Positions 37,860-58,132 of a DNA stretch of 64,000 bases are shown in pieces; position 1 is the first letter of the stretch; each line of letters begins with the position of its first letter. Origin of the DNA: Saccharopolyspora soli (GTDB lineage: Bacteria > Actinomycetota > Actinomycetes > Mycobacteriales > Pseudonocardiaceae); NCBI RefSeq assembly GCF_022678645.1, contig NZ_JALBWV010000045.1, forward strand, positions 1 through 64,000. Direction: 5' to 3'. The notes below the pieces were generated by a model. The model was not told the DNA's origin, made no database searches, and worked only from the letters and a program-made list of their open reading frames with translations. Position numbers and translations under genes: made by a program.

Positions 37860-38026
37860 CGGGAGGGCCGATGGGCAAGACCGAACTCGCTCTTCTCGTT
37901 GTGCTGCTGGTGGCGTGCGGGCTGGTCGTCACCGGTGTGGCGATGTTGGCGGTCCCGGCGGCGTTCATCCTCGCTGGGCTGCTCACTGCGGCGTTGGGGT
38001 TTTTCTTCCTGGCTGAGGTGCGCTGA
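37856..38026 (+). CDS. Small two-helix membrane protein
   Basis: A 56-residue protein that is almost all membrane helix (two segments, about 9-30 and 33-53). It sits between terminase and portal with overlaps at both ends. An internal ATG at 37871 with GGGAGG before it is an alternative start. Unknown function. Confidence 0.6.
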   Translation: MTGGPMGKTELALLVVLLVACGLVVTGVAMLAVPAAFILAGLLTAALGFFFLAEVR

Positions 38027-39399: not shown

Positions 39400-40112
39400 T
39401 GGACACCAAGCGCCTGCACGTCGAGGTGAAGGACGCCGACGACCGGGGCGAGGTGACCGCCGTGTTCTCGACGTTCAACGTCAAGGATTCCGACCAGGAC
39501 GTCACCCTGCCCAGTGCCTTTCAGGATGGCGCTCCGGCGTTGATCTCCGCCTACGGACACACCTCGTGGACGGGGCTGCTGCCCGTCGGCAAAGGCACGA
39601 TCACCACGACCTCGACCGAGGCCGTGTTCCAGGGGCAATTCTTCATGGACACCCAGCACGGCGCGGATACGTTCCGCACCGTCAAGCACACTGGCGAGTT
39701 GCAGGAGTGGTCCTACGGCTACGACCCGGTCGAGTTCTCCTACGGAGACCACGAGGGCGAACGCGTCCGGTTCCTCAAGCAGGTCAAGGTGCATGAGGTG
39801 TCCCCGGTGATGCTCGGTGCCGGTGTGGGTACCCGCACGCTCGCGGCGAAATCCGCCGCAGGCATGAAGTTTTCCGACGAGGCGCACGCGGTCATGGCCG
39901 CGGTGAGCGCGCTCGCGGATCGAGCCGCGGACGTCTTGGCGAAGCGGCAGCACAAGGGCAAGGGGCTGGGCGCCGAATCCACGGCGCTGCTGGGCACCGT
40001 TGAGGCCGAGTTGAAGCGGCTCGGTGAACTGCTGGCCACCGAACCCGAACCCGATGTGGCAGTCGACGCGCGCCGCGAGTTCCTGCGGTTCCTGCGCGCC
40101 ACACGGGGCTGA
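39399..40112 (+). CDS. HK97-family prohead protease
   Basis: A 237-residue maturation protease of the U35 family, seen in EVTAVFSTFNVKDSDQDV, ISAYGHTSW with the catalytic His, and FLKQVKVHEVSPVMLGAG with the active Ser. The C-terminal helical part may act as scaffold. ATG at 39399 gives the better spacing from AGGAGG; the GTG three bases earlier is possible. Confidence 0.92.
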   Translation: MDTKRLHVEVKDADDRGEVTAVFSTFNVKDSDQDVTLPSAFQDGAPALISAYGHTSWTGLLPVGKGTITTTSTEAVFQGQFFMDTQHGADTFRTVKHTGELQEWSYGYDPVEFSYGDHEGERVRFLKQVKVHEVSPVMLGAGVGTRTLAAKSAAGMKFSDEAHAVMAAVSALADRAADVLAKRQHKGKGLGAESTALLGTVEAELKRLGELLATEPEPDVAVDARREFLRFLRATRG

Positions 40113-40145
40113 CCGACCAAACCCATTCGTCCCAAGGAGGACACC

Positions 40146-41369
40146 GTGGCATTTCCCGCGTTGAAGGAGGCGGAAGACCGCCTTGCGGCCAAGCAGACCG
40201 AGCTGGCCACGATCTTCGCCGAGGCAGGCGACGAGCTGAATATGGACAACGTCAAGTCCATCGATGGCGACTCGCAGGCCAAGGTCGACTACATCCGCAC
40301 GCTCAACGAAGAGCTCGACGGGCTCGGGAAGAAGCGCGACGACCTGCTGGTGGTCGCCAAGGCCGCTGAGCGGGCCCGCCAGGTCTCGGAGCAGAGCGAG
40401 ACCGGCGCCGAGACCGGCGAGCGTAAGGGCCGCCCGGTTGAACGGACGTCGGTGGGTGAGCTGTTCACCGCGTCGCAGGCGTACAAGGGCAAGAAGGGTT
40501 CGACAGGTCCCGAGGCGCACCTCGACATCGAGCTGAAGACCCTTTTCCAGACGACCGCGGGGTGGGCGCCGGAAACCACCCGCACCGGCCGCGTGGTGGA
40601 TTTCGCCACCCGTCCGATTCAGGTCACCGACCTGATCCCGCAGACCACCACCGGGCAGGCCGCCGTGGTCTACATGGAAGAGACCACGTTCACCAACACC
40701 GCGGCGGAAACCGCCGAGGGCGGCGCCTACCCCGAGGCGGCGCTGGCGCTGACCGAGCAGTCCAGCCCGGTCCGCAAGATCGCCGTATTCCTCCCGGTCA
40801 CGGATGAGCAGTTGGAGGACGAGCAGCAGGCGTCCGGTTACATCAACAACCGGCTGCCGTTCATGCTGCGCCAGCGTCTGGATTCGCAGATCCTCGTCGG
40901 CAACGGCACCGCACCGAACCTCCGCGGCATCCTCAACGTGGCCGGGATCCAGACCCAGGCCAAAGGCACCGACCCCACGCCGGACGCCGTGTACAAGGCC
41001 ATCGTCAAGACCCGCGTGACCGGCCGGGCGATGCCCAACGCGGTGATCATGCACCCCAACGACTGGCAGGACGTCCGCCTGCTGCGCACCAGCGACGGCG
41101 TCTACATCTGGGGCTCGCCCTCGGAAGCCGGACCCGCTCGCATCTGGGGTCTGCCGGTCGCCGAGGCCGACGCCATCACCGAGAACACCGCGCTGGTCGG
41201 CGACTTCGCCAACTTCAGCGAACTGTCGGTGCGGCGCGGCATCGACGTGCAGGTGTCCAACTCGCACGCCGACTACTTCGTCAACGGCAAGCAAGCGGTG
41301 CGCGCGGACCTGCGCACCGCGCTGGTCATCTACCGCCCGGCCGCGTTCTGCACCGTCACCGGCATCTGA
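40146..41369 (+). CDS. Major capsid protein, HK97 fold
   Basis: A 407-residue coat protein. Residues 1-110 form a helical delta/scaffold domain (AKQTELATIFAEAGDELN...). The mature fold begins near GWAPETTRTGRVVDFATRP, with the E-loop and P-domain segments AVFLPVTDEQLEDEQQ, QILVGNGTAPNLRGIL and MHPNDWQDVRLLR. The protease would remove the N-terminal part. Confidence 0.95.
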   Translation: MAFPALKEAEDRLAAKQTELATIFAEAGDELNMDNVKSIDGDSQAKVDYIRTLNEELDGLGKKRDDLLVVAKAAERARQVSEQSETGAETGERKGRPVERTSVGELFTASQAYKGKKGSTGPEAHLDIELKTLFQTTAGWAPETTRTGRVVDFATRPIQVTDLIPQTTTGQAAVVYMEETTFTNTAAETAEGGAYPEAALALTEQSSPVRKIAVFLPVTDEQLEDEQQASGYINNRLPFMLRQRLDSQILVGNGTAPNLRGILNVAGIQTQAKGTDPTPDAVYKAIVKTRVTGRAMPNAVIMHPNDWQDVRLLRTSDGVYIWGSPSEAGPARIWGLPVAEADAITENTALVGDFANFSELSVRRGIDVQVSNSHADYFVNGKQAVRADLRTALVIYRPAAFCTVTGI

Positions 41370-41381
41370 ACCATCCACATC

Positions 41382-41410
41382 GGGCAGGCGTCCGAAGTGG
41401 ACGCCTGCCC
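41382..41410 (+). terminator. Terminator after the capsid gene
   Basis: GGGCAGGCGTCC and GGACGCCTGCCC form a perfect 12-bp stem with a five-base loop, 12 bases past the capsid stop. It probably gives a capsid-terminated transcript in excess over the connector and tail genes. Confidence 0.85.
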
Positions 41411-41433
41411 GTGACAAATGGGAGGAGTCCCAC

Positions 41434-41655
41434 ATGGCCACGATTCGAGGCGGCAAGGTCATCGAGGGCAGCGGGCTCGGGTCTCCGCTGCTGAACGCGG
41501 GCGCGCCCACGTCAGGCGCCGGGGGCACGTACGCGGGTACCGCGGTGGTGGGGTCGCTGCTGATCGACACCGCCAACGGTGCGCTCTACATCTGCACCAA
41601 CGCGACAGTGGGCGCGTCGTTCGCGTGGACGCAGCTGGCCCCGGCGGGTGCCTGA
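41434..41655 (+). CDS. Small head (decoration-like) protein
   Basis: A 73-residue Gly/Ala/Thr-rich protein of probable beta structure (GSLLIDTANGALYICTNAT), similar to the short repeat found in phage head fibres and tail proteins. Lies between capsid and connector genes, so a capsid-surface or head role is likely. Confidence 0.62.
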   Translation: MATIRGGKVIEGSGLGSPLLNAGAPTSGAGGTYAGTAVVGSLLIDTANGALYICTNATVGASFAWTQLAPAGA

Positions 41656-41936
41656 TGGCGCTGGAGATCAACGCCCAGCACACCGGCGTGTTGGTCGAGG
41701 TCGACGCCAAGCTGTGGCTCACCGCCGACCGCGACCGCCTGGTGCCCGACGGACATCCGGATGCGGCGTTTCTGTACTGCACGCCCGGCATGCAGGTCCC
41801 GCGCGACGAGGCCGAACGCTACGGCCTGCTCGGCGGCACGCCGACCGCCGAGCCCGAAGCCGAGGCAGACCTCGAACCCGAGGGCAAGGCAGTGCAGGCC
41901 CCGCCGAACAAAGCCCGCAGCTCGCGACGCAAGTAG
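41655..41936 (+). CDS. Head-region protein, unknown
   Basis: A 93-residue protein with an ordered N-terminal half (TADRDRLVPDGHPDAAFLY) and an acidic Pro/Glu tail. It overlaps the stop of the previous gene. Position suggests a minor head component. Confidence 0.6.
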   Translation: MALEINAQHTGVLVEVDAKLWLTADRDRLVPDGHPDAAFLYCTPGMQVPRDEAERYGLLGGTPTAEPEAEADLEPEGKAVQAPPNKARSSRRK

Positions 41937-41951
41937 GCCGGAGGTGAGCAC

Positions 41952-42582
41952 GTGGAGACTCTGGACGTGCTGACTCGCCGAGGCGAAAGCCGCGCTGAAC
42001 ATCGGTGCCACCGTCGCGCAGGACGGCGAGCTGGCGGGATTCATCACGGCCGTGTCGCAACGGCTGGACCGGCTTGTGGGGCCCGTTGTCGTGCGCACCG
42101 TCACCGAGGAGGCGCACGACGGCGGGCACTCTGAGGTGTTCCTGGAGCTCTTCCCCGTTCGCTCGATCACAGCGGTGGTTGAGTTTGCCGACGGCACCGC
42201 GGTGCCGCTGGCGGCCGAGACGCACACGGACCGGCCCGCGGCGGCGTACCTGGCGGGTCGGTACAAGCCGGACCGGTCCCTGATGTCGCAACGGTTGTGG
42301 CGCCGCAGCGGTGGCGCCGACGCGGTGTTCGCGGCGGGCCGCAGCAACATCGTCGTGTCGTACGAGGCGGGCCGGTTCGACAGCACCGACGACGTAGCCC
42401 AGAAGTACAAGAACGCGGCAGAGCTGATCCTGATCAACTTGTGGCGATCGCAGCAGGACAGCGTCGGCGCGGTCAGCGAATACGACGTGCCCGCATCGAG
42501 CTTCCCCGCCTTCGCGGTACCGCGCGCAGCACGGGACATGCTCCTCGGCGAGATTCAGGAATCGCGGGTGATGCTGGCATGA
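41952..42582 (+). CDS. Head-tail connector (gp6-like), frame broken near its start
   Basis: The ribosome site GGAGGTGAGC precedes GTG at 41952, which begins METLDVLT. The usual continuation LAEAKAALNIGATVAQDGE, typical of head-tail connector proteins, is found in the +1 frame from 41974 to the stop at 42582. One extra base (about A41973) would explain it. The long product (about 200 residues) has the DPT-type connector body (VFLELFPVRSITAVVEF...). The shift may be an error, a mutation or programmed. Confidence 0.75.
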
Positions 42583-43031
42583 GCATCGGAACCACCCTGC
42601 CCACCGTCAAACGGGCACTCGTCGACGCCCTGTCAGCGCGGCCCGGCTTGGCTGGTGTGCAGGTCGTCTACGAACTGCCGCAGCGCGGGCTGCTCACCGA
42701 GGCGATCTGGTTCGGTGAGGACACCGAAACCGAGAACACCATCCCCGTCATGCGCGCCGGAACCAAGAAGGTGGACGAGACCTACGCGCTGCCGCTGGTG
42801 GTGCAGGTGCTCATCACCGACGGCCGCGACGCCGAAACCGCCGACCAGCGCGCCGCCACGCTGCTCGGCCAGGTTCAGCAGTGCCTCGCCGAGAACCCCC
42901 GCCTGACACCCGAAATCCAGTGGGCCGAGCTGGGCGGCTGGTCGCACCGCGTCGGCCCCATCGGCGACGGCAGCTCACGCGGTAGCCGGTTCGACGCGCT
43001 GGTGCGCGTGCAGGCCCGCCTGTTCCCGTAA
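42579..43031 (+). CDS. Tail terminator / head-tail joining protein
   Basis: A 150-residue protein: TVKRALVDALSARPGLAGVQVVYELP, VQVLITDGRDAETADQRAA and C-terminal FDALVRVQARLFP resemble tail terminator proteins that cap the tail tube. It follows the connector with a four-base overlap. Confidence 0.65.
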   Translation: MSIGTTLPTVKRALVDALSARPGLAGVQVVYELPQRGLLTEAIWFGEDTETENTIPVMRAGTKKVDETYALPLVVQVLITDGRDAETADQRAATLLGQVQQCLAENPRLTPEIQWAELGGWSHRVGPIGDGSSRGSRFDALVRVQARLFP

Positions 43032-43061
43032 CCCGTTCCCGTATCAAGGAGAAGAAGACCC

Positions 43062-43247
43062 GTGCGCATCGTCTACACGGGCCCGTTCGAAGCTATCGAC
43101 GTGCCGTCGCTCGGGCTCACCGCCCGGCGCGACGTACCGATCGAGGCCCCGGACGAGGCCGCCGCGCGCCTGCTGGAACAGGCCACGATCTGGGCCGAGG
43201 CCAAGCCACCGAAGCCCACCACCAAGACCAGCAAGGAGGGCGAGTAA
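43062..43247 (+). CDS. Small structural-region protein
   Basis: A 61-residue protein with a compact N-terminal beta region (YTGPFEAIDVPSLGLTARR) and a Lys/Thr-rich tail; overlaps the tail tube gene by one base. Likely a minor joining protein. Confidence 0.6.
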   Translation: MRIVYTGPFEAIDVPSLGLTARRDVPIEAPDEAAARLLEQATIWAEAKPPKPTTKTSKEGE

Positions 43248-44233
43248 TGGCCATCCCGAGCGGGCTCGACGCCCAGCTGATGACCGGAGAAGAGAGCACC
43301 TACGGCACCGCCGTGACCGTGGATCGCGGCTACGAGTTCCGGTCTGAGGCGCTGTCGCTGGAGGCCCAGCGCATCGAGTCCTCGGCGATCCGGCCCGGCA
43401 AACGCGTCCTGCGCTCCAACCGGTGGTTCCAGGGGCAGCGGTCGGTCGGCGGTGAGATCACGATGGAACTCGGCACGGTGTCGTTCGGCCGCTGGTTCAA
43501 GCACTGCTTCGGCACCGTGACCACCGCACAGCCCGACGCCACCAACGCTCCGACGGTCTACCAGCACACCTTCACACCCGGCCCACTACCGCCCGGCCTG
43601 ACCGTGCAGGTGGGCCGCCCGGACACCGCGGGCACGGTGCACCCCTTCACCTACACCGGCTGCAAGATCGCATCGTGGACGCTGTCGAGCGCCATCGGCG
43701 AGATCGTCACCTTCGCCCCCACGATCCTCGGCCGCGACGAAACCACCGCCACCGAGCTCGCCACGGCCAGTTACCCGGCGAACCTGTCGCTGCTGACGTT
43801 CGTCGAGGGCTCGCTGACGCTCGGCGGCAGTGTGTATGAGATGCGGTCGGTCAGCCTGCAGGGCACCAACGGCATCGCTGATGATCGCTACGTCCACGGT
43901 TCCCGGCTGCGCAACGAGCCACTGGAGATCGGCTCCGAAGGTTCGCAGGCCCGGGTGTATTCCGGGACGATCGAGGGCGAGTTCACCAACCTCGCGGCCT
44001 ACAACCGGTTCGTCAACGGCGACGAGGCCGAGATGGTGCTGTTGTTCGCCGGAGCGAATATCGCCAGCACCTACGACTTCGAGGTGCGGATCACCGCGAA
44101 CGTCAGGTTTGACGGGACCACGCCGAACGTGCCGGATGCCAACATCGTCATGCAGACGTTGCCGATCAAGGCCATCGACAATGGCACCACGTCGATTCGG
44201 TTGGAGTATCAGACCACCGACGCGACGGTGTGA
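43247..44233 (+). CDS. Major tail (tube) protein
   Basis: A 328-residue beta-rich protein; IPSGLDAQLMTGEESTYGTAV, GRWFKHCFGT, YTGCKIASWTLSS and the later VRITANVRFDG match actinophage major tail proteins. It forms the tail tube between connector and chaperone genes. Confidence 0.85.
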   Translation: MAIPSGLDAQLMTGEESTYGTAVTVDRGYEFRSEALSLEAQRIESSAIRPGKRVLRSNRWFQGQRSVGGEITMELGTVSFGRWFKHCFGTVTTAQPDATNAPTVYQHTFTPGPLPPGLTVQVGRPDTAGTVHPFTYTGCKIASWTLSSAIGEIVTFAPTILGRDETTATELATASYPANLSLLTFVEGSLTLGGSVYEMRSVSLQGTNGIADDRYVHGSRLRNEPLEIGSEGSQARVYSGTIEGEFTNLAAYNRFVNGDEAEMVLLFAGANIASTYDFEVRITANVRFDGTTPNVPDANIVMQTLPIKAIDNGTTSIRLEYQTTDATV

Positions 44234-44236
44234 TCG

Positions 44237-44803
44237 ATGCCTGCGCGCATTGAGATCCGGGGTACTCAGGATTTCCGGCGTGCGGCGGCGGAGGTGAAAG
44301 CTGCGGGTGATGGGCGGTTGCGTCGGGAGATGGGCCGCCAGATGCGGACCGCCGCGCAACCGGCCGTTGATGCCGCGCAGAGCAACGTGCGCTCGGTCGC
44401 GTCGGCTGCGACTCGTGGCGGGGGTGGGCAGGCTCGGCGTGAATTCGCCTTGTCCCGTACCCGTTCTCGTACCGAGCGCGCCCGCCGCCAGGCGTACGAG
44501 GGCCGCGGGCTACGGGCCACGATTGCGCGTGCGGTGCGGGTGCAGATGTCCACCGGTGGCCGGTCGGCGTCGGTGCGCATCCGCACGCAAACCCGCTTCC
44601 TCCCCGAAGACCAACGCACGCTGCCCTCGCACCTGAACGACGGCCGGTGGCGGCACCCCGTGTTCGGCAACCGCGACCGCTGGGTGATGCAGACCGCGCG
44701 TCCGGCTGGGTGGTTCGAGTCCGCCATGCGCCGCCACGGCCCGAGGGGCCGGGACGGCGCGGTGAAAGCCGTCAACGACATCATCACCAAACTTGCGAAA
44801 TGA
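44237..44803 (+). CDS. Minor tail / HK97 gp10-like protein
   Basis: A 188-residue, strongly basic protein (long Arg-rich run 70-115) with the C-terminal GWFESAMRRHGPRGRDGAVKA helix seen in HK97-gp10-type tail completion proteins. Confidence 0.62.
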   Translation: MPARIEIRGTQDFRRAAAEVKAAGDGRLRREMGRQMRTAAQPAVDAAQSNVRSVASAATRGGGGQARREFALSRTRSRTERARRQAYEGRGLRATIARAVRVQMSTGGRSASVRIRTQTRFLPEDQRTLPSHLNDGRWRHPVFGNRDRWVMQTARPAGWFESAMRRHGPRGRDGAVKAVNDIITKLAK

Positions 44804-44810
44804 GGTAACC

Positions 44811-45173
44811 GTGCCGCGTGCCGAGTTCGAGTTCCGTGTGGGCGAGTCCAGGTGGGTGCTGGATTTCGCCGATATCACCATGTCCGAGTCCGTCCAGCTG
44901 GAAAAGCTGACCGGCCGCGACATCCCCGGCATCACGTTCCCGCGGCTGGCCGCGCTGTTCACCGCGCAGTCCGCGTTGGCGCGGCGCGCGTTCTTCTGGC
45001 TGGCGCGGGTGAAGTCCGGCGAGACCGTCGATTACGACTCGCCGGTGCTCGACGTCAAGTGGTCCGAACTGATCGTGAACTACCTCGGCGAGGACGCCGA
45101 CGAGCAGACCGCGGCGACGCCGGACCCTACCCAGGAGACGCCCCGGACAGCGTCTCCTACCGCGAGCAGCTGA
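44811..45173 (+). CDS. Tail assembly chaperone, upstream frame (gpG-like)
   Basis: A 120-residue acidic protein; EFEFRVGESRWVLDFADITM and a Thr/Pro tail precede the stop. GAGGTAACC before the GTG sets the start. The next frame (-1) continues with SYREQLTRYKPWFLHLW, the typical gpG/gpGT layout in which a fraction of ribosomes shift to make the fused chaperone. Confidence 0.78.
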   Translation: MPRAEFEFRVGESRWVLDFADITMSESVQLEKLTGRDIPGITFPRLAALFTAQSALARRAFFWLARVKSGETVDYDSPVLDVKWSELIVNYLGEDADEQTAATPDPTQETPRTASPTASS

Positions 45174-45325
45174 CCCGCTACAAGCCCTGGTTCCTGCACC
45201 TCTGGCACATGCACCCCGCCGACGTCGGCCGGTTGACCGTTGACGACTTCTGGATGTGCGCCGGGCTGGTCGAGGAACACAAACGCGCCCGCAGTGAGGC
45301 GCCACCGATGCCAAGGGGGCGATGA
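45121..45325 (+). CDS. Tail assembly chaperone, downstream frame (gpT-like)
   Basis: The segment unique to the -1 frame runs to TGA at 45323-45325 and reads PDSVSYREQLTRYKPWFLHL...LTVDDFWMCAGLVEEHKR. It has no start of its own. The left boundary given is approximate because the exact slip site is not obvious: no canonical XXXYYYZ heptamer stands out. The stop overlaps the tape measure ATG. Confidence 0.7.
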
Positions 45326-47712
45326 TGGCAGGCAGCACCCGCGACCTGGTGTTCACCGTTCTGGGCATCGACCGGGCGTCGAAGACGTTCGACAAGGTCG
45401 GCGACTCGATCGACCGCATGGGCAACCGCGCCACGGTCGCGCTCGCAGGGGTGACCGCCGGTTCGGCTGCTGCGTCGGCCGGTGTCGCCGCAGCCGTCGG
45501 CGCCCTACCGCTGGCGTTCATCGGACTCGGCGCCGTCGCGCTGCGCGAGAACACCGCGGTGCGCGGCAGTTTCGAGGACCTGTCCGAAACCGTCCGCACG
45601 GGACTGACGGCCGACGCGGCGCCGCTGGAAGCGGCATTCGTCGGCGCGGCCGAGGACATGGGCGTGGCCTACGAGGAACTGCGCCCGTTGATGCGGGACG
45701 CCTTCGCCGCCTCCGTGCCCTACGTCGACACCCTGACCCAAGGCGTGATCGGCTTCGCCCGCAATGCCATGCCCGGCATGGTCACCTCGGTCGAGCGCGC
45801 CGGGCCGGTCGTCGATGCGCTGGCGTTGACGATGGAAGACGCCGGAGTCGGAGTCGGCGACTTCTTCGAGATCGTCTCGACCGGCTCGGAGGACGCCGGG
45901 GTCGGTATCGAGCACTTGGGGCAGCTGGTGCGCGGCGTGCTGCCGGGTATCGGCGGCACGCTGGTCGGTCTCACCGGGGTCTGGGCCGAACACGGTGACG
46001 AGGTCGCCGACGTCGTGACCCGCATCATCGGCGTGATCAACGACCTCTCCGGCGGTGCGCTGCCGGTCATGTCCTCCGCGGTCGGTGTCGCCCTCGACGT
46101 GCTCTCCGGCGTGCTCAACGTGATCGAGCCGCTGTCGGGCGCGCTCGGGCCGTTGATCGGGCTGTGGCTGTCGCTGGCGACCGCGATGCGCGGTATCCGC
46201 GCCGTCCGGGAAGTCGTCGCCGGGGCCGCCACGTCGATGATCCAGTTCAACGACAACGCGCGCCGCGCCGCCGGAGGCGGAAACATTCTGGCGACCGCCG
46301 GGCGCGGCATGCTCGGTGTCCTCGGCGGCCCGTTCGGCGCCGCGTTGGCCGCCGCATCGGTCGGACTCGCCCTGTTCGGGTCGGCCAGCCAAAGCGCTGA
46401 AGGCGACCAGCGGTCGCTGTCGTCGGCGCTACGGGATTCTGCCGGGGCGTTTGATGCCAACGCGCGGTCGGCGTTGATGCAGTCCGAGCAGTACCAGGAC
46501 ATCGCCGACTCCGTGGAAGCCGCCGGGCTCTCGCACGAGGAGTACATCAACGCCCTGATCTCCGGTGGTCCCGCGCTGGACAACCTCAAGGCACGGTTAC
46601 AGCAGCAAGTGCAGACCGCGTTCGAGGCGCAGGGCTCGTTCACCGGCGTGACCGGGTCGCTGCGGGGCCAGGCCGACGCCTCGACTGCGCTGCTGCTGGC
46701 CACCGACGGTCTGCGCGGCACGGTCGTGGGCGCGATCGATGATCAGCGGCAGTACAACGACGCGGTGTTCGGCGCCGGATCGGCCATGACTCAAACGATC
46801 CCCGGCACCGACTCGCTGCGCGAGGCCATCACCACGCTCGGGGATTCCACTGCGGACACCGCGGATCGGGTGGATGCGCTGAATACGGCGTGGCAACAGC
46901 TGTTCGGGATCCAGATCAGCATGGACGAGGCCACCGCCGGGTTCGAGGAAGGGCTCGACACTCTGCGGGAATCCCTCGATGGTGTGCGGGGCGGTACCGC
47001 GAACTGGCAGGCCGCGCTGTTCTCGGCCGACGGGCAGATCAACCTCACTACCGAAGAGGGCCGGGAGCTGCACGACAACCTGGTCCAGCAGGGCGAGCAG
47101 TACCGGACGCTGGCGCAAACCGCCTACGACACCGCGCTACGCCAAGGCCAGTCACAGCAGCAGGCCACCGCCACGGCGGTCGCGGCAACCGAGCAGCGCC
47201 GTGCGCAGTTCATCGCCGAGGCGCAGCAGATGGGGTTCACCGCCGACCAGGCCCAACGGCTGGCTGACCGGTATTTCGGGATCCCCCGCGACGTGTCCAC
47301 GCTGATCACGACTCCGGGCGCGTGGGAGGCAATGCGGGCTGCCGACGGCGTGCGCGACGCGGTGAACAACATCCCCCGAAACCGAGTCATCGACATCATC
47401 TTTCGGTCGTCCGGGTCGGGCCAGTCCAACCCCGGTTCGGGTATCCCGCTGCCGTTTCGGGCCCACGGCGGCCCGATCGCCTCACAACGCCCAGTGCTCG
47501 TCGGCGAACAGGGCCCCGAGCTTCTGGTCCCGTCCGGGCCGGGGCGGGTGCTGCCAGCACACGAGACACGGCGGCTGTTGGCGCAGTCCGGTCCGTCCCG
47601 TGAACCGCAGTCGCGTGCCACGGTCAACATCGGCACGTTCGTGGCCCAGCCCAACCAGTCGCCATACGACATCGCCGCCGATCTCGACTGGTTCGCCCGT
47701 GGAGGTGGGTAA
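45322..47712 (+). CDS. Tape measure protein
   Basis: A 796-residue, largely helical and Ala-rich protein with several hydrophobic helices (residues 40-75 and 200-345). The C-terminal FRAHGGPIASQRPVLVGEQGPE motif is the usual tape-measure hallmark. Its length predicts a tail of roughly 120 nm by the 0.15 nm per residue rule. Confidence 0.93.
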   Translation: MMAGSTRDLVFTVLGIDRASKTFDKVGDSIDRMGNRATVALAGVTAGSAAASAGVAAAVGALPLAFIGLGAVALRENTAVRGSFEDLSETVRTGLTADAAPLEAAFVGAAEDMGVAYEELRPLMRDAFAASVPYVDTLTQGVIGFARNAMPGMVTSVERAGPVVDALALTMEDAGVGVGDFFEIVSTGSEDAGVGIEHLGQLVRGVLPGIGGTLVGLTGVWAEHGDEVADVVTRIIGVINDLSGGALPVMSSAVGVALDVLSGVLNVIEPLSGALGPLIGLWLSLATAMRGIRAVREVVAGAATSMIQFNDNARRAAGGGNILATAGRGMLGVLGGPFGAALAAASVGLALFGSASQSAEGDQRSLSSALRDSAGAFDANARSALMQSEQYQDIADSVEAAGLSHEEYINALISGGPALDNLKARLQQQVQTAFEAQGSFTGVTGSLRGQADASTALLLATDGLRGTVVGAIDDQRQYNDAVFGAGSAMTQTIPGTDSLREAITTLGDSTADTADRVDALNTAWQQLFGIQISMDEATAGFEEGLDTLRESLDGVRGGTANWQAALFSADGQINLTTEEGRELHDNLVQQGEQYRTLAQTAYDTALRQGQSQQQATATAVAATEQRRAQFIAEAQQMGFTADQAQRLADRYFGIPRDVSTLITTPGAWEAMRAADGVRDAVNNIPRNRVIDIIFRSSGSGQSNPGSGIPLPFRAHGGPIASQRPVLVGEQGPELLVPSGPGRVLPAHETRRLLAQSGPSREPQSRATVNIGTFVAQPNQSPYDIAADLDWFARGGG

Positions 47713-48579
47713 ATGGCCGCTGGCGACCTGATCACCACCGACGGACAAATCGAATGGCGCGGCGCGCTGCTGGGCGTCGACACCGCGTACGGCCTGGTGC
47801 AGCTGGAAGGCTGGCAAGACCTACCCGACATGCGTGATGGTGACGCCGAGTTGGACAACCAGCACGGCTACCAGCCTGGGAAGCTGCTGGCTGATCGGCG
47901 GATCGTCACGTTGTCGTTCGAGCTGGGGGAACGATCCGAAGCGGACTTTCGGGCCGCCGAGCTCGAACTCCGGCGCATCACCGCACCGGACGAAAATCCC
48001 GCCGAGGAACCCCTCGTGGTGCAGTGGCAGGGCATCAAGGCGATGGTCATGGCCCGCTGCACCGGCAGGTTGATCCCGACCCCGGTGGAGTACTTCTACG
48101 GGCTCACCCGCGGCACGATCCAATGGCGCGCCACCAACCCCCGGTTGTTGCACCTCCCGCAGCAATCGTCCACTACGTCGCCACCGGCTGCCGGTGGCGG
48201 CGGCCTGATGTGGCCGCTTCAGTGGCCGTTGGCGTGGGGTGCGGCGCAATCCGGCGGCGAGATCGTGCTCACCAATACCGGCAATGCCCACGCCCAACCG
48301 GTCTGGCGCATCACCGGGTCCTGCACGCGGCCGGTGGTCCGCAACGCCGACACCGGAGACCAACTGGCGTTCGACGACACGTTCACGCTGCCCGCCGGGC
48401 AAACGGTCGTGCTGACCACCCAGGACAAGTCCGTGCTGCTGACCACCGGTGTCAGCCGTAGCAACCGGTTGGCCCGGCGGCAGTGGTTCACCCTGCCGCC
48501 CGGCCCGACGCGGATCCGGTTCGAGACCAGCGACGGCGGCGGCCAACTCGAATGCCATTACCACCACACGAGTTTCTGA
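47713..48579 (+). CDS. Distal tail protein (Dit)
   Basis: A 288-residue protein; WQDLPDMRDGDAELDNQHG, ELGERSEADFRAAELEL and the later galectin-like beta domain (GGEIVLTNTGNAHAQPVWRI) match siphovirus Dit (PF05709). It forms the hub between tail tube and baseplate. Confidence 0.85.
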   Translation: MAAGDLITTDGQIEWRGALLGVDTAYGLVQLEGWQDLPDMRDGDAELDNQHGYQPGKLLADRRIVTLSFELGERSEADFRAAELELRRITAPDENPAEEPLVVQWQGIKAMVMARCTGRLIPTPVEYFYGLTRGTIQWRATNPRLLHLPQQSSTTSPPAAGGGGLMWPLQWPLAWGAAQSGGEIVLTNTGNAHAQPVWRITGSCTRPVVRNADTGDQLAFDDTFTLPAGQTVVLTTQDKSVLLTTGVSRSNRLARRQWFTLPPGPTRIRFETSDGGGQLECHYHHTSF

Positions 48580-48591
48580 GATCGGAGCATC

Positions 48592-49836
48592 ATGGCTGAG
48601 CGCCATTCGTGGGCCGTGCAACAGATTGACGACCTCGGGCAGCAGACCGTCGAAGACGGCCGGATCACCGTCGCCGCGCTCGCCACGCCAGACGGGCAGA
48701 TCACCTCCCGCACCGGACTGTTGCCCGCAGCTGCCGCACCGGGTGCGGTGACCGCCACCAACCCGACCCCGGACGGGTTCGTGCACGTCGCCCCATTCCG
48801 CGCAGTACTGCAATCCCAGCGCGGCGGCGGCGCCTACCTGCTGTGCCTGGATGCCATCAAGGACATCGACGTCCTCGGCACCGCACCCGCCGACGCCTCC
48901 AACCCGCGCAACGACCTGATCGTGGCCCAACAGTCCGACGCCTACTTCAGCGACACGAACTCCGACATGGTCGTGCGGCACCTCGTCGGCACCCCGGCCG
49001 CGACCCCGGTCGACCCGACCGTAGACGGCAGCCCCGACTACCTACCGCTGGCACGCATCGTGGTCCCGGCCAACGCCGAGACCATCACCACCGCCGACAT
49101 CCAGTCGTTCGATGTACCGCGCACCGTCGCCGCGGGCGGCATCCTCCCGGTCACCGACGCCACCGCGCGCAGCGGCATCGCGGCCCCGTACGCCGGGCAG
49201 GCCGTGTACCGGGTCGACACCCACCGCGTCGAGGTGCACGACGGCACCGACTGGCGTGTGCCCGGAATCCCGGTCGTCGCCGCCACTTCCGAGATCAGCA
49301 ACCCCTATCCGGGGCAGCTGGTCGTGTTGTCGACGACGAACATCGTCCTGCGCTGGAGCGGAACGACGTGGGTGGACTCCTACCCGATCGGTGGCACTAC
49401 CGACGCTACCCGCCACGAGGCGCGCTACTACCGGTCCGCCGTGCAGACCATCCCGAACAACGTGGATCAGCGTGTGCATTTGCCGGACTGGGATTACCTC
49501 TCCGACGACGTGAGCACGGCCGCGGTCAGCAACGGCACCGAGTTCACTCTGAACCGGGCCGGGTTGTGGCAATTGGAGGCGAACATTCGGTTCGTGAGCA
49601 CCGGATCCGCCGCCGAACGCGCGGTGGCGATCGCCGGGTCGCCGACCGGGAGCCGGTACGCGCAGGCGGCCAGCGATCAGACCGGGGAGCCGTGCTCGCT
49701 GTCGTGCTCGACCACCCGCCGGTTCACCGCAGGTTCGAAGTTGAGCATGTGGGCGTACCAGAACACCGGCGCCTCGGTGAACCTCGACCCACTCGGCGGC
49801 GGCATCAACTTCGCCTTGACCTGGCTGCGAGGCTGA
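48592..49836 (+). CDS. Baseplate or fibre protein with C1q-like end
   Basis: A 414-residue protein. The N-terminal part (residues 1-190) resembles baseplate-upper-type proteins of actinophages (GFVHVAPFRAVLQSQRGGGA). The C-terminal 110 residues (AGLWQLEANIRFVSTGSAAE...LSMWAYQNTGASVNL) are of a C1q/TNF-like jelly-roll kind used in receptor binding. Confidence 0.65.
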   Translation: MAERHSWAVQQIDDLGQQTVEDGRITVAALATPDGQITSRTGLLPAAAAPGAVTATNPTPDGFVHVAPFRAVLQSQRGGGAYLLCLDAIKDIDVLGTAPADASNPRNDLIVAQQSDAYFSDTNSDMVVRHLVGTPAATPVDPTVDGSPDYLPLARIVVPANAETITTADIQSFDVPRTVAAGGILPVTDATARSGIAAPYAGQAVYRVDTHRVEVHDGTDWRVPGIPVVAATSEISNPYPGQLVVLSTTNIVLRWSGTTWVDSYPIGGTTDATRHEARYYRSAVQTIPNNVDQRVHLPDWDYLSDDVSTAAVSNGTEFTLNRAGLWQLEANIRFVSTGSAAERAVAIAGSPTGSRYAQAASDQTGEPCSLSCSTTRRFTAGSKLSMWAYQNTGASVNLDPLGGGINFALTWLRG

Positions 49837-49837
49837 C

Positions 49838-50971
49838 GTGGCGCTGCCGGTCTACACCTACGCCATCGCTGACCTGCGCACCAACACCCTGCTGGAAGAG
49901 GTCCCGCTATCCGGGGTGCGGTTCAACAAGCCCCTGAACAGCAGCGGACGGTTCAGCGGCACGTGGAAGCTCGACGAGCGCTCGACCTACCTTGACCCGT
50001 ACGACTTGACGATGCCTACCCGGCGGGTGATCTACGCGTTCCGGGATGCGCGGCCGATGTGGGGCGGGCTGATCTGGTCCCGCGCCTACAACTCGGCCGA
50101 GGACACCGTGGAGATCGGTGCGGGCGAGTGGTGGTCGTACTTCGACCACCGCAAAGTCCTGCCGGTACTGCCGGTGAACCCGGACCTCACCACAGTGGCC
50201 GGACTATCGACCGCGTACGACAACGTGGATCAAAACGAGATCGCCCGTCGCCTGGTGGTGCTGGCCCAGCAGCACGCGGGTGGGGATATCGGTATCGAGT
50301 TCGACGACTCGGTCTCGAACTTCGTGCGGGATCGCACCTACCAGGGCTACGACCTCACCGACGTCGGTGAGGCACTGCGGAACCTGACCAACGTCGAGGG
50401 CGGTCCCGACATGGTCTTCGACGTCATCCCCGCCCCCAGCGGCATCGGGGCGCCGCGGCGGATCCTGCGCATCGGAACCCCCTGGCTCGGCCAACAAGGC
50501 TCAAGCCACGTGTGGGAGATCGGCGGCAACGCCATCCGCTACACCTGGCCCACCGACGGCACCCGCATGGCCACCCGCGCCTACGCCACCGGCGAAGGCG
50601 TCGACCTCGGCACCCCGATCGCCGTGGCAGAGCAGCCCGAACGCTACGACCAAGGATTCCCGCTGCTGGAGCTGGAAACCAACTACTCCGGCGCCGAAAC
50701 CGAAGCCACCTTGGCCGGTCACGCCGAAGCCGACCAGCAGGCCGCCCGGATGCCGGTGGTGCTGCCCACCATCGAGGTGCGCGGCGACATCCCACCCACC
50801 GCCGCCGAGGTCAACCGCGGCGACGACGGCTGGCTGGTCATCGCACCAGATCGGTTCCACCGCAACGGATTCGAAGGACCCGTGCGGGTCATCGACATGG
50901 ACTTCGCGCCCTCGGCCGACGCCGAACGGGTCACGTTGACGCTCGCGCCGCTGCTCGACGGCGTCGCCTAG
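49838..50971 (+). CDS. Tail hub (Tal-like) protein
   Basis: A 377-residue protein. AIADLRTNTLLEEVPLSGVRF, FSGTWKLDERSTYLDPYDL and the PMWGGLIWSRAY block are typical of the siphovirus baseplate hub. No separate lysozyme or peptidase domain is visible. GTG start. Confidence 0.72.
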   Translation: MALPVYTYAIADLRTNTLLEEVPLSGVRFNKPLNSSGRFSGTWKLDERSTYLDPYDLTMPTRRVIYAFRDARPMWGGLIWSRAYNSAEDTVEIGAGEWWSYFDHRKVLPVLPVNPDLTTVAGLSTAYDNVDQNEIARRLVVLAQQHAGGDIGIEFDDSVSNFVRDRTYQGYDLTDVGEALRNLTNVEGGPDMVFDVIPAPSGIGAPRRILRIGTPWLGQQGSSHVWEIGGNAIRYTWPTDGTRMATRAYATGEGVDLGTPIAVAEQPERYDQGFPLLELETNYSGAETEATLAGHAEADQQAARMPVVLPTIEVRGDIPPTAAEVNRGDDGWLVIAPDRFHRNGFEGPVRVIDMDFAPSADAERVTLTLAPLLDGVA

Positions 50972-50984
50972 GGGAGGACCGGGC

Positions 50985-51710
50985 ATGCAGGTCAACCAGC
51001 CGTCCAACCTCTTGGATCGCATCAAGCGCGCCGAGCAGCAGCTGCAACGGCTCTGGAAAGCGGTGGGCCTGGCCTCGGCGACCATCTCCCGTGGCGGGCT
51101 GACCCTGCTGCAGGACGCGTTCCTGCGGATGGTCGACGACAACGACACCGAGATCTTGTACTTCGGGCCGGACACCGACGGACACCAGGTCATGCGCATC
51201 CGCCGCGAAGACGGATCTCAGATCATGTTCACCGGGCAGGCCGCTGGCGGCCGGGACTTCTGGGCGCTCTCTGATTCCACTGGTCGCATCGTTGCCTCCG
51301 ACGACGCCGCATCTGGCGTTGGCCTTGCGCGGCCGTGGTTGTCGGTGCCGATGTATCCGTTGTTCACCATCCAGGGCGGCGACGTCGTGGCCTACATGTC
51401 GCTGCCCGTCAGCGAGCTCACCGGCGCCACCATCTGGGAAGGCCGGGCGTCGATCTCGCACCCCTACATCACCGTCGACGGCCAGTGGGGTGAGGCAAGC
51501 GGCGACAACACCACCACCTACAGACTGCTTATCAACGGCAACCAAGTTGGCAGCTGGACACCGGAGTTCTCGACGGCCACGTTCGGCCCGTTCGACGTCG
51601 CCCCGTATATCGGGCTCGACTGGTGCTCGGTGCGCATCACCGCCACCGCAAGCGGCACCGGCGCGGTCGCCGTGCAGCTGCTCGGCTGCTACCTCCACCA
51701 AACCCTCTAA
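50985..51710 (+). CDS. Tail fibre / receptor-binding protein
   Basis: A 241-residue protein: a helical N-terminal segment with the GFNL-like LLDRIKRAEQQLQRLW trimerisation helix, then a beta-rich body and a C-terminal domain with WTPEFSTATFGPFDVAPYIG. Position at the end of the tail module fits a fibre. Confidence 0.65.
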   Translation: MQVNQPSNLLDRIKRAEQQLQRLWKAVGLASATISRGGLTLLQDAFLRMVDDNDTEILYFGPDTDGHQVMRIRREDGSQIMFTGQAAGGRDFWALSDSTGRIVASDDAASGVGLARPWLSVPMYPLFTIQGGDVVAYMSLPVSELTGATIWEGRASISHPYITVDGQWGEASGDNTTTYRLLINGNQVGSWTPEFSTATFGPFDVAPYIGLDWCSVRITATASGTGAVAVQLLGCYLHQTL

Positions 51711-51723
51711 CCCCGGACACGTG

Positions 51724-52047
51724 ATGACGCCTGAAACACCAGCGGACGTCGCGCTGCACTACGTCCGCGAGGAACTGTCGACCTTGCGAGCAACCATGCA
51801 TGACGAGCTGGCCGCCGTGCGCGCGGACATCTCCGAGCTGGCCGCCACCCTCCGCGGCCACATGAACGACCTCGGCCCGCGCATCGCCGTGCTGGAGCAC
51901 CGGATTGGCGAGTCCGAAAAGGACATCGCCGAAATCAAGTCGGAACGGGATTCCGACCGGTCGAAGCGGTGGACCGTCTGGATCGCCCTGCTGGCATCGG
52001 TCCTCAGCTTCGTCGGATCACTCGTGCTGAATTTCATGGGGAGTTGA
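51724..52047 (+). CDS. Coiled-coil protein with C-terminal membrane helix
   Basis: A 107-residue protein with a heptad-rich helix (LRATMHDELAAVRADISELA) and one transmembrane segment at the end (VWIALLASVLSFVGSLVLNF). Next to endolysin and holin, it is likely a lysis-module accessory (a spanin- or holin-like role cannot be distinguished). Confidence 0.65.
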   Translation: MTPETPADVALHYVREELSTLRATMHDELAAVRADISELAATLRGHMNDLGPRIAVLEHRIGESEKDIAEIKSERDSDRSKRWTVWIALLASVLSFVGSLVLNFMGS

Positions 52048-52049
52048 CT

Positions 52050-53000
52050 ATGGCTCTGCCTCTCATATGGCTCGCCGACGTGCTACGCGGCACGGGCCTG
52101 CACGTCGTGGAAACCTACGGCTGGCGCGAGCGCACCGCCAGCGGCCCCCAGCCAAGGCCCGTCGGCGTGCTGGAACACCACACCGCCACCCCCACGAGCT
52201 ACCAGCGACCGGCGCCGACGGTGCAGCTGTGCATCGATGGCCGCCCCGACCTTGATGGGCCGCTGTGCCACGGCGTCATCGGCTACGACGGCGTGATCCA
52301 CCTGATCGCCGCCGGACGCGCGAATCACGCCGGAAAAGCCAAGGCGTCCGGGCCGAACCCGGCAGGCGACGGGAACACGCTCTACGTCGGGTTCGAATGG
52401 GACTACCAGGGCGTGGATCAAGGCCCGTCGCCGGAGCAGTACGACGCCGCAGTGCGCGCCACCCGCGCCGTGCTCGACCACCTCGGCCGTCCAGCGGACG
52501 CGGCGCGCGGCCACAAGGAAACCAGCGTCACCGGCAAGATCGATCCGGGGCGCGTCGACATGAACCTTTTCCGAGCCGCTGTCGCCAGCGGAGAACAGGA
52601 CCTCGACATGGCCACCGTCAACGAGCTTTTCGAACTCGTCCGCCGATACTCCGGCGGTGACTCCGCCTACGGCTACACCATCCCCCGCTCGCCAGAGCGA
52701 GTGCGCAGGTTTGCCGCAGCCATCCCCCCGAAGATGGGCCGGGTCACCGGAAACGACGGCGAACTGTTCGTGTCCCTCGTTGCTGGCGAGAACGTCGAGG
52801 TGCGCGAGATCTACGCCTGCGAGGACTGGCAGGCCGACGGCAAACCCGGCCGCAAATACGGGCTTCAAGGGCCCTACACGCTGGTCGCGAACGACCGGCA
52901 GTCGTTCCCGGTGCCGGGCGCGGCGACTCAGGTCTGCGTGGTCTACCGCTCCGACTGCGACCTGTCCCTGTCCGTCGAGATCGACGCCAAGTGGAAGTGA
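52050..53000 (+). CDS. Phage endolysin, N-acetylmuramoyl-L-alanine amidase
   Basis: A 316-residue lysin with a PGRP/amidase_2 domain over residues 1-178 (zinc His43/44 in EHHTATP and a second site in ARGHKETS, with GKIDPGRVDM) and a separate C-terminal cell-wall-binding-like domain (KMGRVTGNDGELFVSLVAGE). It cuts peptidoglycan after the holin opens the membrane. Closely related to the chromosomal amidase at 13992. Confidence 0.93.
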   Translation: MALPLIWLADVLRGTGLHVVETYGWRERTASGPQPRPVGVLEHHTATPTSYQRPAPTVQLCIDGRPDLDGPLCHGVIGYDGVIHLIAAGRANHAGKAKASGPNPAGDGNTLYVGFEWDYQGVDQGPSPEQYDAAVRATRAVLDHLGRPADAARGHKETSVTGKIDPGRVDMNLFRAAVASGEQDLDMATVNELFELVRRYSGGDSAYGYTIPRSPERVRRFAAAIPPKMGRVTGNDGELFVSLVAGENVEVREIYACEDWQADGKPGRKYGLQGPYTLVANDRQSFPVPGAATQVCVVYRSDCDLSLSVEIDAKWK

Positions 53001-53005
53001 TCCCG

Positions 53006-53278
53006 ATGTCCGACAAGCTCACCGCGTGGTTGCGCACGGTCGTGCCCGGCCTGTGGGCCGCGCTGATCACCTGGCTGCTGTCCCTCGGCCTGCCCGCGTC
53101 GATCGGCGACTTGCTCGCCGGTGGCGAGGAGTTCGTCATGGCCGCCGTGCTCGCCGCGGTCTACGCCGGGCTGCGCTGGCTTGAACCACGCATGCCCGCG
53201 TGGCTGACCCGCATCCTGCTGGGCTCCAACACCCCACCCACCTACGAGCCGACAGCCGACGCACCGCATCGCAGCTGA
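53006..53278 (+). CDS. Holin
   Basis: A 90-residue protein with two transmembrane segments (WAALITWLLSLGLPAS and EEFVMAAVLAAVYAGLRW) and a short polar tail, directly after the endolysin. A partial copy of this gene is at 54211-54369. Confidence 0.85.
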   Translation: MSDKLTAWLRTVVPGLWAALITWLLSLGLPASIGDLLAGGEEFVMAAVLAAVYAGLRWLEPRMPAWLTRILLGSNTPPTYEPTADAPHRS

Positions 53279-55617: not shown

Positions 55618-55660
55618 CGATCCTCGCAACACCCTGGATTTCAGGGAGTTGCGAGGATCG
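55618..55660. terminator. Bidirectional terminator hairpin
   Basis: CGATCCTCGCAAC and GTTGCGAGGATCG form a perfect 13-bp stem, with CCCT/AGGG pairing inside the loop. It lies between two convergent genes and can end both transcripts, including the candidate peptide operon. Confidence 0.85.
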
Positions 55661-55754: not shown

Positions 55755-56561
55755 CTATGCCCGATGGTGCTTGGCCCAGGCGCGGGCGGTCGCTGCCATG
55801 GTCGTTGCCCAGGGACTCGGGTGATCCCGCTCGATCTCGTTCCACATGCTCATGTTCGCGCGGGCGAACACGGCAACATGCTCAGGATCAGCAGCGGCAT
55901 AGGCGGGAAGTCGTGCGGCGATGGTCTCGGCTTGCTGAATGGTGTGCCCGCGGGCAACGAGTCGTAGCACCCAGAATGCCGGGTCGGTCCAGGATTGCGC
56001 CGGGGTCGCCCATGCCCAGTCGATCAGCCATGCCTGGCCTTGGGAGATCAGGATGTTATCCGGCATCCAGTCCGTGTGGGTCAGCGATTGCCCTGCGAAG
56101 GCCAAGGCGTCGGCGGGATCATCGACGTAGGTGCGAAACCGCGTCTCTATCGGCTTCCACGGGCCTGGACCAGGCGGGATCTCGATGGCGCTCAGGGCTT
56201 CCATGAGCTCGATCACCAAATCAATGTCAGGCGAGTCTGGCCGGTAGTCCGCTGACCGGCCGTCGATATGCTCGAATCCCAGAACGTTCCACCCGTCTTC
56301 GTCGAACTGCCACAGCAGTTCCGGGGAAATCCCTTTGACGAGCGGCGCGGCGGCGGCCTCGCGAGCCTGGGTGATGACCATCCGGTGATCAGACGGCAGC
56401 CCCTTGACGAATACCTTGCCGTCGCGGGTCTCCAGTACGGCGGCCAGTGGCGAGTTCTGCCCGTCGGTCACGGCGTGGCCCGAGGTGATCGGCCCTGTGC
56501 GGGCACTGATCGACTCGATGAGAGATTCGGGTAGATCGGCCCACTGGATACGTTCTGCCAA
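55755..56561 (-). CDS. APH-like phosphotransferase in peptide cluster
   Basis: A 268-residue protein-kinase-fold phosphotransferase of the aminoglycoside/choline type. KVFVKG holds the ATP-binding Lys, THTDWMPDNIL is the catalytic loop (HxDxxxxN) and LIDWAWA the metal-binding Asp. The preceding genes are a small peptide (69 bases upstream) and a radical SAM enzyme, so I infer that it modifies the peptide, confers immunity, or acts on a small-molecule partner, rather than being a true antibiotic-resistance enzyme. Confidence 0.87.
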   Translation of the reverse strand: MAERIQWADLPESLIESISARTGPITSGHAVTDGQNSPLAAVLETRDGKVFVKGLPSDHRMVITQAREAAAAPLVKGISPELLWQFDEDGWNVLGFEHIDGRSADYRPDSPDIDLVIELMEALSAIEIPPGPGPWKPIETRFRTYVDDPADALAFAGQSLTHTDWMPDNILISQGQAWLIDWAWATPAQSWTDPAFWVLRLVARGHTIQQAETIAARLPAYAAADPEHVAVFARANMSMWNEIERDHPSPWATTMAATARAWAKHHRA

Positions 56562-56630
56562 CGGTAGTCCTTACTGGACAGTGCGGACGGCCCGGCCTGG
56601 CGTGATTACCGGGCCGCCCGCGACGGTCGA

Positions 56631-56789
56631 TTACTGGTAGGGGGCGTCGCTGGACGAGCTGCACGCGCACATCGTCATGAGGCCATCGGTGTCAGCGGCG
56701 AGTTCCACGGCATCGGGGTCCAGCACGTCGGACTCCAGCGTGTCAGCCTCCGGCGGAGCCGGGAGCAGTTCGAGGGCAACAGCGGTCAT
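56631..56789 (-). CDS. Candidate RiPP precursor peptide, 52 residues
   Basis: A 52-residue reading frame. The acidic leader (TAVALELLPAPPEADTLES, then DVLDPDAVELAADTDG) is followed by a Cys/Ser-rich C-terminus, LMTMCACSSSSDAPYQ, with Cys41 and Cys43. The ATG overlaps the stop of the radical SAM gene (ATGA), which ties its translation to that enzyme. The leader/core division, length and context are those of radical-SAM-modified peptides. I know no described family with this core. Confidence 0.8.
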   Translation of the reverse strand: MTAVALELLPAPPEADTLESDVLDPDAVELAADTDGLMTMCACSSSSDAPYQ

Positions 56790-57931
56790 GATTCACCCCC
56801 TTTCGCGCTCGCAGACAGTGGGCCACTACTGCTGTGCTGGCAGTAGAGCTCCAGCGGGGCCTTTGCCTGCCGGTACAAATTGGCCAGCGGCATACATGTC
56901 CCGCAGGTCTTCTGGAGAGCGCAGCCCGAGCACCCGCCGTGACGGGTGGTGAGCCGATCGCCGATCACAGCGAGTTTCCGCAGACCGTCCACACCTTCGT
57001 CGAGCAGGTTGATCTGTTCCTCGCGTCCGATCTTGCAGATGCTGGCCATCCCGTGGGGGTCGGCGTGGAAGTGCGTGATGCCTGCGTTGCACCCGGTGTA
57101 GGGGTCGTGCTTGCGCAGCACTTCGCGGGCCTGGCTGGGCAGCACCTCGCCGCCGCCACTGAACGTCGGCGTGATGTTGGTGTACTCGAAGCTCGGGACA
57201 CCGAAGCGGTCGGCGATCGCCGTCATCTCATCGCGCTCGTGCGCGTTGTGCCTGCTCACAACGATATTGATGCGCATCGTGAGCCCGACCTCATGGGCGG
57301 CGGCAAGCCCGCGCATGAACCTCTTGAACGCGCCCCGGCTCCGGGTCATCCCGTCGTAAGACTCTTCCGTCGCCCCGTAGAGGCTGAGCGTCAACCGGTA
57401 CGGCCGGTAGGTGGCCAGGAGGTCCAGTGTCTTCTGTTGGTGCAAGCGCGACCCGTTGGAGGAGATCTGAATCATCATCCCCAACTGGGTCGCGTAGGCG
57501 AGCGTTTCCGCGAACAGGGGATCGATCAACGGCTCACCCCCGGTGAGCTGAAGCCAGAGAACCCCGGCCTCGGCCATGATGTCCAGAAGCCGTTCACGGC
57601 CTGGCCATTGCATGCCTGCGAACAGCTTCTCGCCGAGATAGCAGTGCTCACAGTCGTAATTGCAGCCGAGATTCAGCTCATACGAGGCGCGGGCGTAGCC
57701 GTACGGGCTGTCCGGTCGCACCATGATCGTGTCCCCAGCCGTCTTCTCGGTCACGTCCATGCCCCACTGGGCGCGGGCGGCAACGGCCAGCCAGTCAGGC
57801 ACTACAGCGGTGATCGCGGCGTCCCGCAGCTCGGCGTACTTGTTCACGCCGAGCTTGATCCCTCCCTCCCGGCCAGGACTGACGACCAGGTGGCCATCGG
57901 GGTAAGGACTGGCGATGAGCTGGTAAGTCAT
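56786..57931 (-). CDS. Radical SAM/SPASM peptide-modifying enzyme
   Basis: A 381-residue enzyme. Residues 85-98 have CNYDCEHCYLGEK, i.e. CX3CX2C at Cys90, 94 and 97 for the SAM [4Fe-4S] cluster, followed by LQLTGGEPLID. The C-terminal SPASM domain has at least seven further cysteines, in GCNAGITHF, SICKIG, GGCSGCALQKTCGTCMP and LYCQH. The N-terminal 80 residues could bind the leader. The ATG at 57931 follows GGACGGAGGTCTCC. It probably installs thioether, C-C or similar crosslinks on the peptide encoded immediately downstream. Confidence 0.93.
   Translation of the reverse strand: MTYQLIASPYPDGHLVVSPGREGGIKLGVNKYAELRDAAITAVVPDWLAVAARAQWGMDVTEKTAGDTIMVRPDSPYGYARASYELNLGCNYDCEHCYLGEKLFAGMQWPGRERLLDIMAEAGVLWLQLTGGEPLIDPLFAETLAYATQLGMMIQISSNGSRLHQQKTLDLLATYRPYRLTLSLYGATEESYDGMTRSRGAFKRFMRGLAAAHEVGLTMRINIVVSRHNAHERDEMTAIADRFGVPSFEYTNITPTFSGGGEVLPSQAREVLRKHDPYTGCNAGITHFHADPHGMASICKIGREEQINLLDEGVDGLRKLAVIGDRLTTRHGGCSGCALQKTCGTCMPLANLYRQAKAPLELYCQHSSSGPLSASAKGGES

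Positions 57932-58055: not shown

Positions 58056-58132
<77 letters not shown>

Follow-up and report, generated by a model that had tools for sequence, protein, structure and literature searches.

The operon at positions 55755 to 57931 of the analysed window (64,000 nucleotides of Saccharopolyspora soli, contig NZ_JALBWV010000045.1) is one instance of a real and widespread RiPP-type cassette. Comparison across loci indicates that this cassette probably comprises a precursor modified by a radical SAM (rSAM) enzyme, a kinase that phosphorylates a tyrosine of the core and, beside or instead of the kinase in part of the loci, a GNAT acetyltransferase. The preliminary description had recognized three minus-strand genes here, for an rSAM/SPASM enzyme, a peptide and a kinase, and all of these open reading frames were present as claimed. 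The operon has the following features.

56786..57931, minus strand: radical SAM/SPASM enzyme, 381 aa, ATG start behind GGAGG
56631..56789, minus strand: precursor peptide, 52 aa, with an ATGA overlap with the rSAM stop
56634..56669, minus strand: putative core CACSSSSDAPYQ, at the C-terminal end of the peptide, with an inferred boundary
56637-56639, minus strand: Tyr codon of the putative core
55755..56561, minus strand: phosphotransferase of APH/choline-kinase fold, 268 aa, TTG start
55618..55660, minus strand: hairpin downstream of the operon, without a T-run

The rSAM stop and the peptide ATG share ATGA, and 69 bases separate the peptide stop (56631) from the kinase start (56561), both in agreement with the preliminary description. 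The 'strong terminator at 55618' was only partly borne out: the hairpin (55660-55618, 13+5 pairs, RNA MFE -34.9 kcal/mol, z -7.5) is strong, but it has no T-run and was not listed by the terminator scan. Upstream of the rSAM gene, 77 bases (58056-58132) consist almost purely of G and C homopolymer runs, perhaps an assembly artefact, which may affect the rSAM promoter region.

Precursor peptide and rSAM/SPASM enzyme

The 52-aa peptide of the window gave zero matches in NCBIfam, Pfam, PADLOC and PHROGs, and the only annotated plasmid record inspected labels the cassette peptide 'hypothetical protein'. A matching short open reading frame ending in C...[DE]..P-x lay directly after the rSAM gene in 174 of 183 loci. 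These loci were distinct rSAM proteins from actinobacteria, plasmids and viral contigs, from which only exact rSAM duplicates had been dropped, so that near-copies remain. The nine unscored loci comprised six at a contig end, one rSAM fragment, one altered peptide end and one variant; the variant peptide of L351 ends in SSDQVYNN. When the same pattern was sought in control stretches, it was found in 1/174 antisense, 4/171 2 kb downstream and 6/171 upstream, which rules out a chance open reading frame as the peptide. The cassette thus pairs a conserved short precursor gene with an adjacent enzyme that modifies peptides, as is typical of RiPP systems. Lack of peptide conservation next to homologous rSAM genes had been named as grounds for refutation; the peptide is conserved there, and the proposal of a candidate RiPP system is supported. 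A search limited to the open-access literature, including the exact motif, found no description of the cassette.

The pattern demanded Cys, an Asp or Glu close by, and Pro before the scored residue, which itself was left free. Since Cys and Pro were required, the Cys in every scored core and the constancy of both residues follow from the pattern itself; the only limit on this is set by three loci in which the pattern was not found (L067, L350 and L351). Two core forms were distinguished. With the scored residue numbered -1, form 1 (126 loci) has Cys at -11 and -9, and form 2 (48 loci) has a single Cys at -7; Asp occupied -4 in 164 of the 174 cores. The consensus was C-x-C-x3-D-D-x-P-Y or, in the single-Cys form, G-C-x-D-D-N-P-Y-x, behind an acidic leader. 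The window core belongs to form 1, with one extra residue (Q) past the Tyr.

CX3CX2C plus SPASM cysteines is the pattern of SPASM radical SAM enzymes, and the window enzyme belongs among these by its cysteines (C90/C94/C97, and SPASM-type cysteines at 281, 299, 334, 337, 343, 346 and 364). These were invariant in 41 aligned rows, C334 nearly so. The enzyme passed Pfam PF04055 with 61.5 bits and reached no curated NCBIfam cut-off among the best 25 of 54 models, where the highest scores were those of MftC (83.5 bits, cut-off 265) and viperin (52.2 bits, cut-off 180). Clustering of the rSAM enzyme with a known non-peptide family had been named as an argument against a RiPP system; no such assignment emerged among these models. 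The mycofactocin precursor ends in Tyr and MftC acts on this terminal Tyr. The likeness to MftC lies in its place as the highest-scoring curated rSAM model and in the Tyr at the end of the precursor; its equivalog score is far under the cut-off and the Tyr here is replaceable by Phe, His or Asn, and mycofactocin was rejected on this score.

An anti-phage enzyme of the viperin type paired with a kinase (pVip) would fit the matches to PADLOC pVip models (61 and 57 bits) and the location of the cassette in phages. The NCBIfam viperin score, however, is lower than that of MftC and well under its own cut-off, and neither the SPASM-type cysteines nor the conserved peptide agree with such an enzyme. 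Viperin defence was rejected on the equivalog score and is, in our estimate, extremely improbable.

The predicted rSAM structure was closest to BlsE, SkfB, SuiB and PqqE; the model was poor (pLDDT under 50) at 90-103, 252-285 and 330-381. The N-terminal 70 aa were modelled as three strands followed by helices (pLDDT 86-97), so that an RRE-like fold is predicted for the N-terminus. By sequence, an RRE gave no Pfam match for three sequences and no PDB profile match. This leader-binding domain is frequent, not universal, in RiPP cassettes.

The kinase and the core tyrosine

The kinase belongs to the APH family by its fold and catalytic residues. K53, E68, H162, D164, N169 and D181 were invariant in 27/27 aligned rows, the window sequence scored under the gathering threshold of Pfam PF01636 (19.5 vs 23.2 bits), and the model built from this alignment had a pLDDT of 95. 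The closest PDB folds were the choline kinase LicA and aminoglycoside phosphotransferases, and corramycin phosphotransferase was also among the best 50 fold neighbours. Relatives with solved structures, sought by sequence, were absent at 0.01. In 130 loci, kinase-profile matches of at least 40 bits lay downstream of the rSAM gene and on its strand; the locus stretches had no such matches at other places. The kinase, put forward earlier as a third component of the operon, thus co-occurs with rSAM and peptide in 130/174 loci.

Kinase-fold proteins can also act as RiPP cyclases that do not phosphorylate, like RosX. Such cyclases exist in lanthipeptide clusters, and RosX and TvaE lack catalytic and Mg-binding residues (PMC12291118). 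With the corresponding residues invariant in the rows aligned here, a non-catalytic cyclase was rejected; we regard this reading as very improbable.

Judging from the aligned loci, the core Tyr does not vary in the presence of the kinase and is free otherwise. The residue after Pro was Tyr in 130/130 kinase loci, whereas in the 44 kinase-less loci it was His in 26, Phe in 12, Tyr in 4 and Asn in 2. A smaller earlier set had given Tyr in 92/92 kinase loci and in 2/26 kinase-less loci. The idea that this residue is necessarily aromatic was dropped, given Asn in two loci. In no fewer than five loci scored as having the kinase (L201, L206, L218, L235 and L239), its gene is split into at least two open pieces while the Tyr is kept, an observation that speaks against the Tyr as kinase substrate. 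Two near relatives differ in the same manner: L064 has a kinase and DNPY, L045 has no kinase and DNPF. The four kinase-less loci that keep Tyr, which likewise count against it, are L052, L053 and L354, with a GNAT gene, and L309, without one. The idea of a kinase elsewhere in the genome was dropped for L052 and L053, the first genome having none and the second weak pieces only. Judged by eye, L309 carries a different kinase-like gene on the opposite strand, 1227-2135 bases past the rSAM stop.

The association of kinase and Tyr had a Fisher p of 3e-35, with descent ignored. On the rSAM tree, the Tyr position showed 0 changes among 128 kinase rows (total branch length 31.3) and 6 changes among 44 kinase-less rows (branch length 10.5). 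In contrast, positions -3, -4 and -5 changed 11, 5 and 11 times in kinase rows vs 0, 0 and 1 times in kinase-less rows. The asymmetry at the Tyr position gave a binomial p of 2.5e-4 by branch length and a Fisher p of 5e-6 against positions -3, -4 and -5, both values resting on parsimony counts over pruned parts of a 'quick' tree. Kinase presence changed 5-6 times on the rSAM tree (6 on the 172-row tree). Because these gains and losses are so few, the sister-pair comparisons were non-significant, and neither sign test was able to reach 0.05: four supported independent pairs on the 172-row tree gave on average 2.5 in the same direction, 0 opposite and 1.5 without difference (p 0.25), and the 116-row tree gave 4 same, 0 opposite and 1 without difference (p 0.125).

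The few independent kinase changes would also suit an arrangement in which kinase and peptide are mere neighbours, the kinase acting elsewhere and Tyr vs His, Phe or Asn being a lineage marker. So would the many kinase relatives outside the cassette. Kinase relatives were found in 65/394 class genomes (1e-15), vs 17/394 for the rSAM enzyme (1e-60), and inspection of 20 kinase-relative sites revealed kinases without an rSAM cassette; the notion of a kinase family exclusive to the cassette was dropped. The absence of any kinase locus without Tyr (0/130) and the opposite behaviour of the Tyr position (0 vs 6 changes) and its neighbouring positions argue against a lineage marker, which we hold to be improbable. 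A constant Tyr with the kinase and a free one without it have as their simplest cause that the Tyr is the substrate residue, and the pattern suggests that the kinase phosphorylates the core Tyr after Pro.

Same-family kinases without rSAM were seen in G152, G432, G205, G447, G334, G301 and other genomes. Some of them are ~50% identical to cassette kinases, and one adjoins, by eye, an XRE and a DUF397-like gene. Nine genomes with a kinase-less cassette were searched for a kinase relative elsewhere; five had one and four had none (1e-10). Like the wide spread of the kinase family, this weighs against the Tyr as kinase substrate.

A gene with a GNAT profile was located downstream in 53/174 loci, usually directly after the peptide, and 11 of these loci also had the kinase. 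Both GNAT examples scanned were above the cut-off of PF00583. GNAT was present in 42/44 kinase-less loci, and kinase, GNAT or both in 172/174 loci. All 53 GNAT loci have Asn before the Pro, a co-variation that may be explained by descent.

The near-universal presence of a kinase or GNAT could also be read as self-protection, with the kinase inactivating a finished antibiotic-like peptide by a phosphate on its Tyr and GNAT giving the protection where the core has no Tyr. Such a role would show an identical dependence on Tyr, the fold neighbours of the kinase are choline kinase and antibiotic phosphotransferases, including that for corramycin (among the best 50), and kinases of the family occur without rSAM, as would be expected of resistance genes. 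Against this, no transporter was noticed by eye, from the first 60 residues, in the first 38-40 gene clusters common to at least three loci. We consider self-protection possible but rather unlikely, and phosphorylation of the core Tyr as a step of the pathway remains the preferred reading.

Phage, island and genome context

The region to the left of the cassette has the following features.

20532..20606, plus strand: tRNA-Val, left border of an integrated island
20635..21597, plus strand: tyrosine integrase beside tRNA-Val (phrog_1, 3.4e-45)
36342..53278, plus strand: prophage genes for packaging, head, tail and lysis, among them terminase at 36342, portal at 38026, major head at 40146, tape measure at 45322 and endolysin at 51969
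52991..53278, plus strand: small membrane protein, holin-like by reading of the sequence

A 46-bp copy of the 3' part of tRNA-Val (91% identical) is found past the end of the window, at contig positions 77350-77395, and the cassette is therefore inside a tRNA-Val-bounded island. The earlier placement in accessory DNA next to a prophage held as to accessory DNA; the place can be refined to near the lysis end of the prophage, within this island. Repressor, HTH_17, replication-initiator-like and exonuclease genes were observed at 59493-64000 and at L368; the genes that follow, as far as the repeat at 77350, were judged by eye only. The prophage runs from the integrase beside tRNA-Val to the lysis genes (20532-53278), with an approximate right end, as the genes past ~59 kb may form another integrated element arranged in tandem with it. 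An isochorismatase-domain gene (53528-54196) is flanked by two like sequences for a small membrane protein (52991-53278 and about 54210-54390), which has the look of an insertion accompanied by duplication of that sequence.

The best explanation of the contexts is that the cassette moves with temperate phages and other accessory actinobacterial DNA. At L196, L353 and L360, a gene for a small membrane protein like that of the window (holin-like by reading) faces it in convergent orientation. In the isolated Streptomyces phage Success, which has a laboratory Streptomyces host and may lysogenise, judging by its recombinase and HTH genes, gp1-gp3 form a complete cassette: an 'oxidoreductase' (the rSAM enzyme, 44% identity), a 38-aa peptide and a 'kinase' (43%), annotated without mention of a RiPP. 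Unlike the window core, the phage peptide ends in TPGCGDDNPYN, which is the single-Cys form. Relatives of the rSAM enzyme were found in 14 IMG/VR contigs at 44-67% identity (16 matches in total, two weak); ten of these contigs were scored, seven with kinase, all Tyr, and three without, having Phe, Tyr and His. Some genomic loci are clearly among chromosomal or plasmid genes.

A scan of genome contigs yielded 50 related loci across many actinobacterial genera. In overlapping genome samples, the rSAM profile was found in 17/394 genomes of the class and 13/200 of the window's family (both at 1e-60, own genome counted), 63/297 of the family of G168 (1e-60), 11/120 of the family of G325 (1e-100) and 46/246 of the genus of G168 (1e-100). 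Genes for XRE-type regulators and HATPase_c-like, NUDIX-like and DUF6415 proteins were recurrent in the upstream DNA of many cassettes (L027, L041, L353, L360 and L068 are examples), the names being judged by eye except for DUF6415.

Proposed pathway and known systems

In the proposed pathway, the rSAM enzyme would bind the leader, perhaps by means of its RRE-like N-terminus, and modify the Cys/Asp part of the core. Its product may be a thioether or similar crosslink, for example from Cys to Asp, a guess that we rate at somewhat less than even. The rSAM reaction should not need the Tyr, because His, Phe or Asn can stand in its place. The kinase would phosphorylate the Tyr hydroxyl before or after the rSAM step, and GNAT may cap the product in another way where the kinase is absent.

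Cys-Asp motifs are known ranthipeptide crosslink sites (PapB, freyrasin). The cassette resembles ranthipeptide and sactipeptide systems in its SPASM rSAM enzyme and short Cys-containing precursor. It differs from them in that no curated cut-off was reached, a kinase and GNAT are added, the crosslink is putative and the two core forms differ from each other in Cys-Asp spacing. Sublancin is a RiPP (glycocin) carried by the prophage SPbeta; carriage by a prophage is common to both systems, whereas the sublancin enzymes are unrelated.

The kinases of paeninodin-type lasso peptides are HPr-like, unlike the APH-fold kinase described here. Genes for a lasso cyclase or protease were not noticed by eye among the gene clusters common to at least three loci. 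The logic of these peptides was the closest found, with a kinase and a conserved C-terminal hydroxyl residue in both; there the target is Ser among lasso genes, and here it would be Tyr beside an rSAM/SPASM enzyme. PadeK, ThcoK and PsmK are kinases encoded beside a lasso precursor that phosphorylate its C-terminal Ser, and the phosphorylated Ser is conserved in the lasso precursors of kinase-bearing clusters (PMC9266682).

As a tentative and rather doubtful extension, the cassette might represent a phage-mobile RiPP class in which an enzyme of antibiotic-kinase type, serving as the dedicated tyrosine kinase of the rSAM-modified peptide, switches it between active and protected states to the advantage of the lysogen, with GNAT as the switch when the Tyr is lost. 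If the proposed pathway is true, it adds a widespread RiPP-type family with sequence-predicted Tyr phosphorylation by an APH-fold kinase. The sequence evidence for the target residue of the kinase is unusually direct, and the cassette gives a hint that antibiotic kinases and acetyltransferases may originate as partners in peptide pathways.
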